A DNA stretch of 64,000 nucleotides from NCBI RefSeq assembly GCF_034009455.1, contig NZ_CP125380.1:6553001-6617000 (forward strand), in the 5' to 3' direction. This document shows, piece by piece, positions 55,750 through 62,105 of the stretch. Every line of letters starts with the position of its first letter. The first letter of the stretch is position 1. This DNA is from Pseudomonas sp. P5_109 (GTDB taxonomy: Bacteria; Pseudomonadota; Gammaproteobacteria; Pseudomonadales; Pseudomonadaceae). The notes under the pieces were generated by a model. It was not told the DNA's origin. It saw nothing but the letters and a program-made list of their open reading frames with translations, and did not search any database. The position numbers were made by a program, and so were the translations under genes.

Positions 55750-56208
55750 ATGTCCAACGCACCCCATGCCCATCACTTACGCACCGGCCGCTACTCGGAA
55801 AACGGCCGGATTTATTTGCTCACAGCTGTCACCCACCAGCGACAACCCGTCTTCAAGGACTTGCATATGGGTCGTACGGTGGTAAGCGAATTCAGGAAAG
55901 CAACTGAGGACGGCCAAGCCTCTTCTATTGCCTGGGTGATCATGCCAGATCACTTTCACTGGCTGGTCGAGTTGCATAGCGGTGATTTGCCGAAACTGAT
56001 GCAAGCCACCAAATCTCGAAGCGCCCGCGCTATCAACAAAGCGAGAGGCTGTCACGAGACGCTATGGCAAAAAGGTTATTTTGACCGGGCGCTGCGTCGC
56101 GAGGACGACCTGAAAGCGATGGCCCGATACATCGTTGCCAACCCATTGCGAGCAGGGCTAGTCGACCATATCGGCAAATATCCGCTATGGGACGCCATCT
56201 GGCTCTGA
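55750..56208 (+). CDS. REP-associated tyrosine transposase (RAYT)
   Basis: 152 residues of the Y1/HUH transposase family. The HUH motif is His68-Phe-His70 in MPDHFHWLVEL, the candidate catalytic tyrosine is Tyr127 in ARYIVANPLRAG, and the RAYT-typical LWQKGYFDRALRRED precedes it. Related to IS200/IS605 TnpA but a single-copy chromosomal type that processes REP palindromes. Flanked on both sides by complete 100-bp A-type REPINs, the usual RAYT arrangement. Start ATG at 55750 with AAGGA directly upstream. All catalytic residues look intact. Confidence 0.93.
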   Translation: MSNAPHAHHLRTGRYSENGRIYLLTAVTHQRQPVFKDLHMGRTVVSEFRKATEDGQASSIAWVIMPDHFHWLVELHSGDLPKLMQATKSRSARAINKARGCHETLWQKGYFDRALRREDDLKAMARYIVANPLRAGLVDHIGKYPLWDAIWL

Positions 56209-56220
56209 AACGCAGCCAAC

Positions 56221-56320
56221 TGTAGGAGCGAGCTCGCTCGCGATGGTCGTCAACGATAACGCGTTTATTCTGGATGAACGCGTTGCCCGCTGGTTCATCG
56301 CGAGCAAGCTCGCTCCTACA
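56221..56320. repeat. A-type REPIN, right flank of RAYT
   Basis: Standard 100-bp A unit starting 13 nt after the RAYT stop. Confidence 0.93.
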
Positions 56321-56594
56321 GATAATCGTTCCATGTGAAGTTCCGCAGGCCTGCCCGCACGTCTTGTGAATGCTGCCTCCACGCTTACGACCATTCCCTC
56401 CAGCCGCCAGCCGTGTAGAATCGCGAACATTCATCGCCAGTCATCCCCGGCGGGTTTATGAGCTCAAGCTGAAGCGCGCGGCGATCCCGCAAAGTTATCG
56501 GCAACTTCCGGACACGCGGCCATTTCTGAGTGTTCCAGACGTCAATAGAAGCTCACTTCCCTTTTGATACCTGATTAGCCGCCCGGAGTGTTTC
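56321..56594. other. Spacer upstream of ilvD
   Basis: 274 bases after the RAYT flank REPIN, expected to hold the ilvD promoter and leader. No leader peptide rich in branched-chain residues or attenuator was recognised. Confidence 0.5.
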
Positions 56595-58436
56595 ATGCCT
56601 GATTACCGCTCGAAAACATCCACCCACGGCCGCAACATGGCCGGTGCCCGCGCACTGTGGCGCGCCACGGGGATGAAAGATGACGACTTCAAGAAGCCGA
56701 TCATCGCCATTGCCAACTCCTTCACCCAGTTCGTACCGGGCCACGTCCACCTCAAGGACCTGGGCCAGCTGGTTGCCCGCGAAATCGAACGCGCTGGCGG
56801 CGTGGCAAAGGAATTCAACACCATCGCTGTCGATGACGGCATCGCCATGGGCCACGACGGCATGCTGTATTCGCTGCCGAGCCGCGAGATCATCGCCGAC
56901 TCCGTCGAGTACATGGTCAACGCCCACTGCGCCGACGCCATCGTCTGCATTTCCAACTGCGACAAGATCACCCCTGGCATGCTGATGGCGTCCCTGCGCC
57001 TGAACATCCCGGTGATCTTCGTTTCCGGCGGTCCGATGGAAGCCGGCAAGACCAAACTCGCTTCCCACGGCCTCGACCTGGTCGACGCCATGGTGATCGC
57101 CGCCGACTCCAGCGCTTCTGACGAGAAAGTCGCTGAGTACGAGCGCAGCGCCTGCCCGACCTGCGGTTCGTGCTCCGGCATGTTCACCGCCAACTCGATG
57201 AACTGCCTGGTCGAAGCACTGGGCCTGGCACTGCCTGGCAACGGTTCGACCCTGGCCACCCACAGCGACCGCGAGCAGCTGTTCCTGCAGGCCGGCCGCA
57301 CCATCGTCGAGCTGTGCAAGCGTTACTACTTTGATAACGACGAGTCGGTATTGCCGCGCAACATCGCCAACTTCCAGGCGTTCGAGAACGCCATGACCCT
57401 GGACATCGCCATGGGCGGTTCCACCAACACCATCCTGCACTTGCTGGCCGCCGCCCAGGAAGCCGAGATCGATTTCGACCTGCGCGATATCGACCGTCTG
57501 TCCCGTCACGTGCCGCAACTGTGCAAGGTCGCGCCGAACATCCAGAAGTACCACATGGAAGACGTGCACCGCGCCGGCGGCATCTTCAGCATCCTCGGTT
57601 CGCTGGCCCGTGGCGGCTTGCTGCACACCCAGCTGCCGACCGTGCACAGCCGCAGCATGGAAGAAGCCATCGCCAAGTGGGACATTACCCAGACTAACGA
57701 TGAAGCCGTGCATCACTTCTTCAAGGCTGGCCCTGCGGGCATCCCGACGCAAACCGCGTTCAGCCAGTCGACCCGTTGGGAAACCCTGGACGACGACCGT
57801 GAGAACGGCTGCATCCGCAGTGTCGAGCACGCGTACTCGCAAGAAGGCGGCCTGGCCGTTCTCTACGGCAACATCGCCCTGGACGGCTGCGTGGTGAAAA
57901 CCGCCGGCGTCGACGAGTCGATCCACGTGTTCGAAGGCAACGCCAAGATCTTCGAAAGCCAGGACAGCGCCGTGCGCGGCATCCTCGCCGACGAAGTGAA
58001 GGAAGGCGACATCGTCATCATTCGCTACGAAGGCCCGAAAGGCGGCCCGGGCATGCAGGAAATGCTCTACCCGACTTCGTACCTGAAATCCAAAGGCCTG
58101 GGCAAAGCCTGCGCCCTGCTCACCGACGGCCGTTTCTCCGGCGGCACCTCGGGCCTATCCATCGGCCACGCTTCGCCTGAAGCGGCTGCCGGTGGTGCGA
58201 TTGGTCTGGTGCAGGACGGCGATAAAGTGCTGATCGACATTCCGAACCGCTCGATCAACCTGTTGGTCAGCGACGAAGAACTGGCGGCACGCCGGGTCGA
58301 GCAGGACAAGAAAGGCTGGAAACCGGTGGAAGTGCGTCCACGCAAAGTGACCACCGCGTTGAAAGCCTACGCCCTGCTGGCCACCAGTGCCGACAAGGGT
58401 GCTGTGCGTAACAAGGCGATGCTTGACGGGCTGTAA
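56595..58436 (+). CDS. ilvD: Dihydroxy-acid dehydratase
   Basis: 613 residues. Penultimate step of valine, isoleucine and leucine synthesis. Iron-sulfur ligands in [12 protein letters not shown] and [18 protein letters not shown], with Cys in the C-terminal half and [14 protein letters not shown] near the active site. Single gene with its own terminator. Cytoplasmic. Confidence 0.97.
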
Positions 58437-58456
58437 GCGTTAACCGTCGAACATGA

Positions 58457-58487
58457 AAATGCCCCGCCAAGTGCGGGGCATTTTTTT
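58457..58487 (+). terminator. Intrinsic terminator of ilvD
   Basis: Stem gccccgc / gcggggc with a 5-nt loop, extended by A/T pairs, followed by seven T, 20 nt after the ilvD stop. Confidence 0.95.
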
Positions 58488-58499
58488 GCGCCGATCCCC

Positions 58500-58599
58500 T
58501 GTAGGAGCGAGCTTGCTCGCGATGGTCGTCAACGATAACGCTGGCATCCTGACACCCTGCGGCGTTCTCAGGTTCATCGCGAGCAAGCTCGCTCCTACA
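58500..58599. repeat. A-type REPIN (100 bp)
   Basis: Standard A unit between convergent ilvD and the DUF6124-like gene. Confidence 0.93.
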
Positions 58600-58615
58600 G
58601 TGGGCGTCACATCGA

Positions 58616-58864
58616 TCAGTCCTGCGGGTCGAGATTATCCAGCGCCTGATTCACCGCCAATTCGCCCAGCATGATCACCTGTGCAATCCCCAGCATCGTG
58701 CTGCGTTGCGAACCTTCCAGCAGTGCGGCGAAATCGCTGGCCATGACATTGGCCGAGGCGAGGGATTCGCAGGCGTGGGCCAACAGGGTTTCGGTGTCGA
58801 GGCCGGGGGCGATGACGAATGTTCGGCTGGGTTTGCGCGGAGGATCGGGGGTAATTTTGAGCAT
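58616..58864 (-). CDS. Small DUF6124/DUF3077-like protein
   Basis: 82 residues, no signal peptide or TM segment. The segment ETLLAHACESLASANVMASDFA and the ending ELAVNQALDNLDP resemble, from memory, a family of small Pseudomonas proteins labelled DUF6124 (or DUF3077); many of those have a longer N-terminal half. Function unknown. Strong ribosome site AAGGAG 8 nt before the ATG, and this site is complementary to sequence within the upstream structured region. REPIN downstream. Confidence 0.75.
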   Translation of the reverse strand: MLKITPDPPRKPSRTFVIAPGLDTETLLAHACESLASANVMASDFAALLEGSQRSTMLGIAQVIMLGELAVNQALDNLDPQD

Positions 58865-59220
58865 AGATAAAACTCCTTACACCATAAGACAAGGAGCCAT
58901 CACCCTCGCTACCAAACGAAGGGTGGCGGCCATGCGCAGGTTGGTAGACCGGGGTGTAAGGAAACCGGCGCGCCCGAAAGCGCCCTGTGCATGACCACCA
59001 TAAAAAGCAGAGACGCAAGAACGCCTGCAAATCATGATGCTTTGCACCCTACACAGCCGGGCTACCAAACCCGATCACTGATGCTCAGTGACAGGTAGAC
59101 GGTAGATTCCAGGAGTAAGGCGCACAAGCCGGCGGATTCTGGCGTAGTCGTAGGCCCTTACGCAAGAATGCGTAGGTTGCGACTGTAAGGAGATGTCGTT
59201 CGAGCGGAGGCTTTCATTGC
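58865..59220 (-). promoter_or_regulatory. Structured leader of the DUF6124-like gene
   Basis: Read on the minus strand. TCCTTACACC (58962-58953) is the exact complement of GGTGTAAGGA (58883-58874), which contains the Shine-Dalgarno. A second anti-SD copy, CTCCTTAC, lies near 59192-59185. Other hairpins: TCACTGA/TCAGTGA (around 59075-59091), GGCGC/GCGCC (58967-58984), CACCCT/AGGGTG (58901-58925). The string GTTTGGTAGC occurs twice. A reading frame (59068-58877, or from ATG 59035) stops with the TAA of TAAGGAG. It looks like a cis-acting translational control element. Confidence 0.5.
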
Positions 59221-59231
59221 ACCGATTGGCC

Positions 59232-59257
59232 CCATCGCGGGCAAGCCCGTTCCCACA
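59232..59257. repeat. Solo REP, C/B-like
   Basis: Single arm ccatcgcgggcaagcccgttcccaca without a partner; a mixed variant of the C and B arms. Beside the structured leader. Confidence 0.7.
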
Positions 59258-59302
59258 GGGGATCTTCGGTGTTCACACGGCCTGGGTTTCACCCGAGAAC
59301 TT

Positions 59303-59402
59303 TGTAGGAGCGAGCTTGCTCGCGATGAACGCAAAGACACCGCGCTAAATCAGAAAGCACGCGCCATCGTTAACGACCATCGCGAGCAAGCTCGCTCCTA
59401 CA
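59303..59402. repeat. A-type REPIN (100 bp)
   Basis: Arms as in other A units, but the inner spacer is in the opposite orientation relative to the copies at 12149 and 58500 (gttaacgaccatcg near the right arm). Lies 14 nt after the pchP stop. Confidence 0.92.
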
Positions 59403-59416
59403 GTAGCTACCCGGTC

Positions 59417-60472
59417 TTACTGGATTTCTTCAGGCTTGACGATCACCCAGTTCTTGTCGGCAGTCACGGTGAGCCCTTCCTTGGCCTGGGCTGCGGCGTT
59501 CTTGGCCATCATGCCCTGGATCTGGGTCATGTACTTGTCCTTGCGGTTGACCCACAGGTGGATGCCGCCCTTGGCCACGTCAACACTGTGGAACAGCATG
59601 TAGCCGTCACTGGTCGGGGTATCGCCGCCGACCAGCACCGGTTTTTTCCACTCATCGATGTAGGTCAGGATCGCCGCTTGTTTGCCGGCCATCCAGGTCG
59701 CCGGGGTCCACAGGTACGGGGTCAGTTCCAGGCCGAGGTTGGCCTTCTCGTCATATTTGCCGGCGGTGATCTGCTTGCGCGCGGTGGTCAATTCGCCGGT
59801 TTTTTGATCCTTGAGCAGCAGCGACACGCCGATCACGTTCTGCGGTTTGACGTTGTAGCCGTACTTCGGATCGGCCGCGACCATGCGCACCAATTCTTCG
59901 GAGGCGGCGGTCATCACGTAGACCTCGATGCCGTTCTCCATCAGTTTGTTGTACAGCTCTTGCTGGCCGGTGAAGATTTTCGGCGGGTTGACGTCGAGTT
60001 TCTTGACCACATCGCCTTCGTAATAAGTGGCCGGTACCGGTTTGCCGGACGCCATCATTTCGTCAACATAGCCCTTGAGTTCCTTGAGCGTAAAGCCAGA
60101 GAACACCTGGGCGACCCATGGGTAGCAGACCATGTCGTCGACTTCGCAGAGGCGGTAGTAGTAGCTGAACAGGCTTTCCTTGTGATCGGCAGTGTCTTTG
60201 AACGGCATCAGCTTCAGGGAGGGATCGAGCTTGTCGCGGGTGATCAGGCCTTTGTTCTCCATGAACGGCAGCAACGACTCTTCGAGGTCGTAGCGGTAAC
60301 TGGTGTTGTCCATGTCGAACACCGCGTAGTTACCCTTGTTGGCGTTAGCCGCGATCATCGCGTCCAGCACCTTGGCCTGATCGGCCGGCCAGTGTTTCAG
60401 ATCCGTTGCGAGAACCTGGCCGGCAAGGCCAAGGCAAATTGCTGCAGCCAGAAATTTCGGTGCGAACTTCAT
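59417..60472 (-). CDS. pchP: Phosphorylcholine phosphatase
   Basis: 351 residues with a signal peptide (FLAAAICLGLAGQVLA). A HAD-type phosphatase: motif I FDMDNTSYR, motif II around VYVMTAAS, motif III GGDTPTSDGY. These match the residues described for P. aeruginosa PchP, a periplasmic enzyme releasing choline from phosphorylcholine. The start is placed at the second ATG of MHMKF because GGAG is 8 nt upstream of it; the open frame extends 58 codons further without support. Divergent from the cystine transporter across about 240 nt. Confidence 0.88.
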   Translation of the reverse strand: MKFAPKFLAAAICLGLAGQVLATDLKHWPADQAKVLDAMIAANANKGNYAVFDMDNTSYRYDLEESLLPFMENKGLITRDKLDPSLKLMPFKDTADHKESLFSYYYRLCEVDDMVCYPWVAQVFSGFTLKELKGYVDEMMASGKPVPATYYEGDVVKKLDVNPPKIFTGQQELYNKLMENGIEVYVMTAASEELVRMVAADPKYGYNVKPQNVIGVSLLLKDQKTGELTTARKQITAGKYDEKANLGLELTPYLWTPATWMAGKQAAILTYIDEWKKPVLVGGDTPTSDGYMLFHSVDVAKGGIHLWVNRKDKYMTQIQGMMAKNAAAQAKEGLTVTADKNWVIVKPEEIQ

Positions 60473-60713
60473 GTGCATATCTCCCTGAATGAAAGACATC
60501 GACGCTAACAAATAAGTGTGACAGTCCTCGTCTGTCAGCGACCGCCCACGTCCCTTTCGCGTCAGTTGCATTTCTGACAGCGACATCCGCTTATTCCAAA
60601 AACGACAGTCACCATACGTTTTTGATATTAATTCATTAGTTTTCAAGCTGTTAGGCTTGCCGGTTCACAGCTGCCCCGGAAGGTGGCTGGCACAAGTCTC
60701 ACTCGGAGTTCTC

Positions 60714-62105
60714 ATGAATCTGCCGCTGATCCTCAATCTGCTGGTGTTCCTCGCCCTGCTCTTCGGCTTGGCGCAAACCCGCCACACCACATGGAGCCTG
60801 GCGAAAAAAGTCCTGCTCGCTCTGGTGCTGGGCGTGGCGTTCGGTGTGGCGTTGCACACTGTCTATGGTGCCGGCAACCCGGTATTGAAAGCCTCGATCG
60901 GCTGGTTCGATCTGGTGGGCAACGGTTATGTGCAACTGCTGCAAATGATCGTGATCCCGCTGGTGTTCGCCTCGATCCTCAGCGCCGTGGCGCGCCTGCA
61001 TAACGCCTCGTCCTTGGGCAAGATCAGCTTCCTGACCATTGGCACGCTGCTGTTCACCACGTCCATCGCGGCGCTGATCGGCATCGGCCTGACCAACCTG
61101 TTCGGCCTGACCGCCGAAGGCCTGGTGGCCGGCACCCAGGAAATGGCGCGCCTGCAAACCATCCAGACCGACTACGCCGGCAAGGTCGCCGACCTGAATG
61201 TGCCGCAGTTGTTGCTGTCGTTCATTCCGCAAAACCCCTTCGCCGACCTGGCGCGAGCCAAGCCGACGTCGATCATCAGCGTGGTGATTTTCGCCGCGTT
61301 CCTGGGTGTCGCCGCGCTGCAACTGCTCAAGGATGACGCCGAGAAAGGTCAGAAAGTGATCAACGCCATCGACACCCTGCAAGCCTGGGTGATGCGTCTG
61401 GTACGCCTGGTGATGAAGCTGACCCCGTACGGCGTGCTGGCGCTGATGACCAAAGTGGTTGCCGGTTCGAACCTGCAAGACATCATCAAGCTCGGCAGTT
61501 TTGTCGTGGTGTCGTACATCGGCCTCGGTCTGATGTTCGTGGTGCATGGCGTGCTGGTGTCGGCCGCCGGGATCAACCCACTGCGCTTCTTCCGCAAGAT
61601 CTGGCCGGTGTTGACGTTTGCCTTCACCAGCCGCTCCAGCGCCGCGACGATTCCGTTGAGCATCGAAGCGCAGACCAGTCGCCTGGGCATCCCGCAGTCC
61701 ATCGCCAGTTTCGCCGCTTCGTTCGGTGCGACCATCGGCCAGAATGGCTGTGCCGGTCTGTACCCGGCGATGCTGGCGGTGATGGTGGCGCCGACCGTGG
61801 GCATCAACCCGCTGGACCCGCTGTGGATTGCGACGCTGGTGGCGATTGTCACGCTGAGTTCGGCCGGTGTGGCCGGGGTCGGTGGCGGCGCGACCTTTGC
61901 CGCGCTGATCGTGCTGCCGGCGATGGGTTTGCCGGTGTCACTGGTGGCGTTGCTGATTTCAGTCGAGCCGCTGATTGATATGGGGCGTACGGCGTTGAAC
62001 GTCAGTGGTTCGATGACGGCGGGGGCGATTACCAGTCAGGTGATGCAGCAGACTGATAAGGCGCTGCTGGATTCGGATGAGCATTCGGAGTTGGCTCACG
62101 CTTAA
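60714..62105 (+). CDS. tcyP: L-cystine symporter, TcyP type
   Basis: 463 residues, a sodium/dicarboxylate symporter (DAACS) fold with about eight helices and re-entrant loops. [17 protein letters not shown] is the serine-rich hairpin 1 and [18 protein letters not shown] the following transport segment. Length and motifs match the TcyP/YdjN cystine carriers. Start [12 protein letters not shown] at 60714; upstream in-frame codons are leader. Inner membrane, cystine/sulfur uptake. Confidence 0.88.

Follow-up and report, generated by a model that had tools for sequence, protein, structure and literature searches.

Results

A C4-type module precedes a DUF6124 gene

The window is a 64,000-nucleotide stretch of the Pseudomonas sp. 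P5_109 chromosome. On its minus strand, a small gene of the DUF6124 family lies downstream of a compact structured module. The order on this strand is a predicted promoter, a c4-a1b1 element, a C4 antisense RNA, a short leader containing a2 and the Shine-Dalgarno (SD) sequence, and the DUF6124 gene. The features are as follows.

59136..59165, minus strand: putative sigma70-type promoter, predicted from the sequence; -35 TTGCGT (59165-59160), 18-nt spacer, -10 CAGAAT (59141-59136)
59054..59105, minus strand: c4-a1b1 element (RF03163), 47.0 bits, marginal against the gathering threshold of 46.7
59068-59062, minus strand: a1, TTGGTAG, in the hairpin loop of c4-a1b1; complements a' of C4
59054-59047, minus strand: b1, GTGTAGGG, running beyond the 3' edge of the RF03163 match; complements b' with G-U pairing
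58919..59005, minus strand: C4 antisense RNA (RF01695), 83 bits, gathering threshold 45, E 6.4e-17, full length 1-87
58953..58963, minus strand: b' loop of C4, UUCCUUACACC, antisense to the SD region; pairs with 58883-58873
58941..58947, minus strand: a' segment of C4, CUACCAA, 7-bp partner of a2 and a1
58909..58915, minus strand: a2 target, UUGGUAG, within a hairpin loop of the leader; covaries with a' at all seven pairs
58891..58896, minus strand: putative local anti-SD, CUCCUU (DNA CTCCTT), which could form a hairpin with AAGGAG
58873..58883, minus strand: b2 target, GGUGUAAGGAG, containing the SD AAGGAG (58878-58873)
58616..58864, minus strand: DUF6124 gene, 82 aa (PF19619, 87.9 bits, cut-off 27)

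In the C4 fold, a long outer stem encloses two hairpins, the first of UUCG type and the second carrying b' in its loop; a' comes next and is single-stranded. The a'-a2 helix is 7 bp long in the window, and the b' helix covers the SD with 10-11 bp. GGCUCC is the majority sequence of the aligned leaders at the local anti-SD.

A first-pass annotation of this DNA had called a DUF6124-like gene here, which the family score bears out. It had also described a 10-nt anti-SD. The segment at 58962-58953, TCCTTACACC, is indeed the exact complement of 58883-58874, GGTGTAAGGA, which contains most of the SD, and the helix reaches 11 bp when one G-U pair is counted. Among 5000 dinucleotide shuffles of the upstream transcript, 6 contained an exact 10-nt complement to any part of the 20-nt SD window. 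In C4, this anti-SD corresponds to the b' loop. The string GTTTGGTAGC is indeed duplicated as well, at 59070-59061 and 58917-58908; the two copies carry a1 and a2, each complementary to a' of C4. A proposed second anti-SD, CTCCTTAC, is found at 59192-59185, but it is probably not in the transcript because it lies upstream of the predicted promoter.

The neighbors of the module are ilvD, a HAD-like gene (15.3 bits, below the cut-off) and a symporter gene. Inverted pairs of a GAGCGAGCTTGCTCGCGATGG-type repeat, which we take to be REP/REPIN-like, are located on both flanks of the module (window positions 59410-59290 and 58605-58500). An IS200-like Y1 transposase gene (PF01797) at 55750-56208 may encode the matching REP-associated transposase of these repeats.

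Covariation in C4 and between C4 and the leader

Compensatory double changes occur at 15 of 26 predicted C4 pairs among the 28 copies of this genome. A broader alignment contained 71 modules, after near-duplicates were removed and 2 of 73 modules were then taken out by hand. C4 and a'-a2 together are paired in 97.6% of its cells, compared with 86.4% in shuffled and at most 39.5% in slid controls. The a'-a2 helix alone is paired in 97.0% of cells and shows double changes at 7 of 7 pairs. It contains 123 double-change cells versus 27.9 in shuffled alignments; such counts are inflated by related sequences, and the slid controls preserve this relatedness. Seven double-changed pairs were reached in 3 of 500 shuffles, and the other four measures in 0 of 500. 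The three-pair stem beside the a2 loop is paired in 97.2% of cells, with double changes at all three pairs.

Compensatory changes, whose absence the first-pass annotation had named as evidence against its reading, are clearly present in the C4 stems and a'-a2. They sit where an antisense RNA needs them, in the stems of C4 itself, in a'-a2 and in b'-SD. The b' loop is among the least conserved parts of C4. In this genome b2 and the SD share nucleotides in 22 of the 28 modules and none in the other 6.

Most C4s are matched best to their own leader

Complementarity between C4 and leader is largely private to each copy. For the 28 C4s of this genome, pairing of a' and b' with the own leader averages -27.2 kcal/mol, compared with -15.1 (sd 0.71) for permuted combinations, a difference reached by 0 of 20000 permutations. 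Across 106 modules, the values are -27.8 and -19.0 (sd 0.31). Strong pairs, at -25 or better, make up 18 of 28 own combinations and 1 of 756 non-cognate combinations. Ranked by contiguous-helix energies, with b' boundaries placed by eye, 24 of 28 C4s fit their own leader best. The own leader ranks second for L013 and L028, third for L010 and 22nd of 28 for L014. The match to the upstream a1/b1 is weaker, with the own element first for 18 of 28. Duplex energies that allow internal loops are less specific and place the own leader first for 11 of 28.

The L014 copy (C1:471990-472076) has a normal C4 structure and a leader that no longer fits a' or b'. It is possibly a natural escape from control.

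Copies in this genome

The genome (6.96 Mb, one contig) contains 29 C4 matches, 28 of them above the cut-off, and 30 a1b1 matches, of which 12 are above the cut-off. By coordinates, 20 of its 22 DUF6124 stretches lie directly downstream of a C4. The other eight C4s above the cut-off are upstream of genes for three DUF3077 proteins, one Bro-N protein and four small proteins without an above-cut-off Pfam family. These last four (L010, L012, L022 and L027) are about 90-100 aa long, and those of L010 and L027 look alike by eye. The Bro-N protein, encoded at L009 (C1:6775166-6778253), matches phage anti-repressor Ant families. A second Bro-N gene, at L134 (C1:1276700-1278000; 38.3 bits, cut-off 25.6), is preceded by matches that all fall below their cut-offs (C4 37.1, a1b1 35.9 and isrK 37.3 bits).

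Two of the 22 DUF6124 genes are without C4. L133 has an intact gene and an above-cut-off a1b1 with no C4 match, and L136 (C1:4677600-4678900) has neither a C4 nor an a1b1 match. The L136 gene is located just before a PrrF small RNA (RF00444, 159.5 bits, L136:985-1132). Two copies, L132 and L137, have decayed: each has a deletion that begins within C4 and reaches the codons for the C-terminus of DUF6124. L137 is the 29th C4 match (34.3 bits). A weak a1b1 match at L135 (29.6 bits), beside a tRNA-Ser gene, may be due to chance.

An intrinsic terminator between a1b1 and C4 was considered as a general feature and rejected. It was found in 6 of 28 own modules and 27 of 106 overall, versus 39 of 560 shuffles. 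Single loci, among them L001, L004 and L008, do carry one.

A promoter-like motif is shared by 13 sites

The 21-mer CAGAATCCGCCGGCTTGTGCG, with up to three mismatches, has 13 sites in the genome, all just upstream of a1b1/C4 loci. Twelve have an above-cut-off C4, and the remaining site belongs to the decayed L132. The reversed control gave 0 sites at up to three mismatches. A longer pattern, in which a CTTGCG-like sequence ends 19 nt before CAGAAT, returned the same 13 places. In other genomes, 60 of 78 modules have CAGAATCCGCCGGCTTGTGCG, with up to four mismatches, in the 300 nt that precede them. The remaining own copies carry other upstream sequences.

The motif would represent a shared promoter, judging from its sequence and position, and the copies that bear it could answer to a common regulator. 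Transcription in the window would be expected to start near 59129. A start downstream of 58960, which the first-pass annotation named as incompatible with its reading, is opposed solely by this predicted promoter. At three mismatches, a longer operator-like pattern has no match in the window. We do not claim a shared palindromic operator, because the window copy differs in the longer pattern.

Conservation and spread

The annotation had further suggested that leaders like this one recur before related small genes of Pseudomonas, which proved correct in other genomes as well as in this one. At least 453 stretches are related to the window protein, and the best 80 of these were analyzed. As top matches to that protein they are biased to close relatives, and all 80 are in Pseudomonas. 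C4 is found at most 400 nt upstream in 78 of the 80; the exceptions are L102 and L119. In L119, the promoter motif is joined directly to the SD. With 2 of 22 genes in this genome and 2 of 80 loci elsewhere being without C4, we conclude that C4 is not required for persistence of a DUF6124 gene.

In 15 of the best 80 loci, the HAD-like and symporter genes of the window are found upstream, and 11 of the 15 also have ilvD downstream within the stretch examined. These loci represent the same chromosomal site, since they share the same neighbor genes. At this site in related species, b'/b2 varies between sequences that are unrelated to one another yet matched within each pair: it is CUUACACC/GGUGUAAG in some loci and CCUGGA/UCCAGG or CUGGUGA/UCACCGG in others. 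The a' segment stays constant as CUACCAA while b' and the SD change jointly. L053 is an exception; its C4 is followed by an insertion, and it does not pass the pairing test with fixed windows.

C4 was detected in 110 of 119 Pseudomonas genomes, this one included. Copies were counted up to 33 per genome in this survey, so the top value is at least 33. A deeper run detected C4 in all of the 12 other Pseudomonas genomes it covered, with copy numbers from 1 to 42, and in one of six genomes from other genera, as a single copy. Among 184 other genomes of the class, C4 is present in 6, with 1-3 copies each. DUF6124 was found in 95 of the 119 Pseudomonas genomes and in 0 of the 184 others.

Of 50,697 phage records, a single one, from P. 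fluorescens Q8r1-96, contains DUF6124, and there it lies at the record's edge; none of 72,556 plasmid records contains it. Among IMG/VR viral contigs, 80 of 97 stretches examined contain C4 modules in the same order, 88 modules in total, which counts against a purely chromosomal life of the device. The proteins of 6 of the 88 modules were scanned and belong to DUF3077, DUF6124 (two), Rha, AntA and Bro-N. The two DUF6124 copies may be genuine phage genes or may belong to host DNA flanking predicted prophages. Four C4s follow one another over some 2.7 kb of a single IMG/VR contig, L154. The genes that follow them have similar starts by eye, and the one downstream gene scanned is Rha.

Discussion

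A C4-type antisense unit in the chromosome

The leader is very probably a C4-type antisense unit that represses translation, resides in the chromosome and has been multiplied in Pseudomonas. A transcript from near 59129 would carry a1/b1, C4 and then the DUF6124 gene. C4 would fold into its two-hairpin structure, and a nuclease probably frees it from the precursor; in phage P1, C4 is excised by RNase P. In the folded C4, a' would bind a2 and b' would bind the SD region in b2, blocking translation of DUF6124. The upstream a1/b1 could compete for the same C4 segments. Alternatively, the 3' arm of C4 may pair with the leader, forming the a2 hairpin. Given this competition and the arm-leader pairing, the precursor could therefore switch between active and inactive C4. 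Ordinary chromosomal genes surround the unit, and most copies retain an address of their own. The sequence comparisons show the family membership, the structure, the self-matched complementarity and the spread, while the promoter, processing, repression and switching are inferred.

The arm-leader helix is likely, not proven; it would exclude the folded C4 and show a2 in a loop. Together with the a2 stem it is paired in 90.5% of cells in the 71 rows, with 59 double-change cells versus 9.8 in shuffles. The number of pairs with double change was equalled in 56 of 500 shuffles. At pair 87-128, CG is found in 28, UA in 25 and UG in 15 of the 71 rows.

This helix gives weight to a different reading, which we regard as possible but unlikely, in which the module is mainly a cis-acting folding switch of one mRNA. 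The folded C4 would leave the SD to CUCC in the leader, and pairing of the 3' arm with the leader would open the SD. A short a1/b1 RNA could then activate in trans, as does IsrK in the Salmonella prophage Gifsy-1. PMC4825925 shows that IsrK and orf45-anrP act through alternative structures and coupled translation, and weak isrK matches are found at several loci (window 15.8, L134 37.3 and L132 36.6 bits). However, every such match is below the 50-bit cut-off. Part of the arm-leader pairing is simply conserved sequence, and pair 90-126 is unpaired in 28 of 71 rows. A cis switch alone would not need the strict matching of a' to a2 and of b' to b2, and no general terminator closes the a1b1 part before C4.

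The near-absence of strong non-cognate pairs also suits a type I toxin-antitoxin-like arrangement. The small DUF6124 protein would be harmful and C4 would act as its antisense antitoxin, one RNA per small gene, with orthogonal addresses separating the copies. The neighboring P1 gene icd blocks cell division, according to PMC8198154. We consider this arrangement improbable. C4 is upstream on the same strand rather than overlapping or opposite to the gene, and the DUF6124 protein, predicted to be a helical hairpin with flexible ends, is not an obvious membrane peptide. A strong toxin is also hard to reconcile with the intact gene without C4 at L133 and with L119, where the promoter motif leads straight to the SD.

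The first-pass annotation was right that the leader is conserved and structured, that its SD can be hidden by pairing and that alternative pairings are available. It missed that the genome holds about 28 such copies. Its assignment to a riboswitch or a leader controlled by an RNA-binding protein is very hard to sustain: conservation would be expected of a site for a ligand or protein, and b' is instead poorly conserved and varies together with the SD. Rfam gives a C4 antisense RNA with an a1/b1 element instead, and no riboswitch family is among the four Rfam 15 matches in 56000-62000 at E<=1. The riboswitch idea is not needed, because C4 and a1b1 account for the features that were named, except for CTCCTTAC upstream of the predicted promoter.

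Relationship to phage systems

In phages P1 and P7, c4 RNA binds the ant mRNA around the ribosome-binding site, blocks its translation and is essential for heteroimmunity (PMC12197685). The c4, icd and ant genes form one operon (PMC8198154). The antisense unit described here belongs to the same RNA family by covariance-model score (RF01695, RF03163) and has the same order of a1b1, C4, a2/b2 and gene, with an a' and a b', the latter over the ribosome-binding site. Unlike the phage version, it is chromosomal, lies between ordinary genes and precedes DUF6124 rather than icd and ant. The immI arrangement of C4, icd and an antirepressor gene within a phage is thus not found at this locus, where the next gene is DUF6124. 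In this genome, L009 and L134 alone have an antirepressor-like gene downstream. Copy number differs as well, with up to 42 copies per Pseudomonas genome, most with their own address.

IsrK-orf45-anrP of Gifsy-1 is similar in its short upstream RNA, its alternative structures and its coupled short ORF. The window differs from it in scoring 15.8 bits against RF01394 (cut-off 50), in having a different cargo, and in the lack of a general terminator before C4. The sar RNA of phage P22 is likewise an antisense RNA that blocks antirepressor translation (PMC12197685). It is a different RNA, with no sar match among the Rfam matches, and the likeness rests on the description.

With about 28 C4 copies, most of them best matched to the gene directly downstream, a silencing device of phages appears to have been turned into an array that controls host genes. 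One chromosome would thus hold a natural set of near-orthogonal translational repressors, with about 28 separate genes under C4, and the array is a clear case of antisense-target co-evolution. C4 is already known from phage P1/P7 immunity, and a 2010 survey (PMC2864571) reportedly lists it. Among the matches listed in a search of open-access titles and abstract openings, we found no description of a chromosomal C4 array in Pseudomonas.

At its most speculative, the domesticated phage device could be an orthogonal, antisense-locked array that senses incoming or waking phages, an idea to which we give little credence. RNAs made by phages, a1/b1-like or C4-like and bearing a matching address, would strip C4 from a host copy so that a DUF6124 or DUF3077 protein is released, and host C4s could silence matching phage antirepressors in trans. 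When host C4s were compared with viral leaders, 22 of 2184 pairs reached -25, compared with 1 of 756 among the non-cognate pairs of this genome. The top six all fit one host copy, L024, and are mostly located before DUF6124-like genes.

Proteins encoded downstream

If they are controlled by C4, DUF6124 and DUF3077, so far families without an assigned function, gain a regulatory handle. The predicted DUF6124 model (mean pLDDT 84.8) places helices at 24-46 and 51-78. A fold search with it returned no match at E<=0.001 in the PDB or among viral models, and the best E for DUF6124 against PDB sequences was 0.72. NCBIfam gave no family for the four proteins tried, and PHROG gave none for DUF6124. 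Assigning a function from the two-helix fold was rejected, as no structure, sequence or family match was informative. DUF6124 was not mentioned in the open-access literature searched; DUF3077 was, in one paper.

At L001 and L004, two of the DUF3077 copies, the SD serves a short ORF that overlaps the DUF3077 start. This resembles the orf45-anrP overlap of Gifsy-1 (PMC4825925). In L003, DUF3077 starts directly, without a short ORF. The DUF3077 proteins of L001 and L003 show a weak resemblance to DUF6124 as well, scoring 15.0 and 12.5 bits against its cut-off of 27, a hint from their sequences that the two families may be related.
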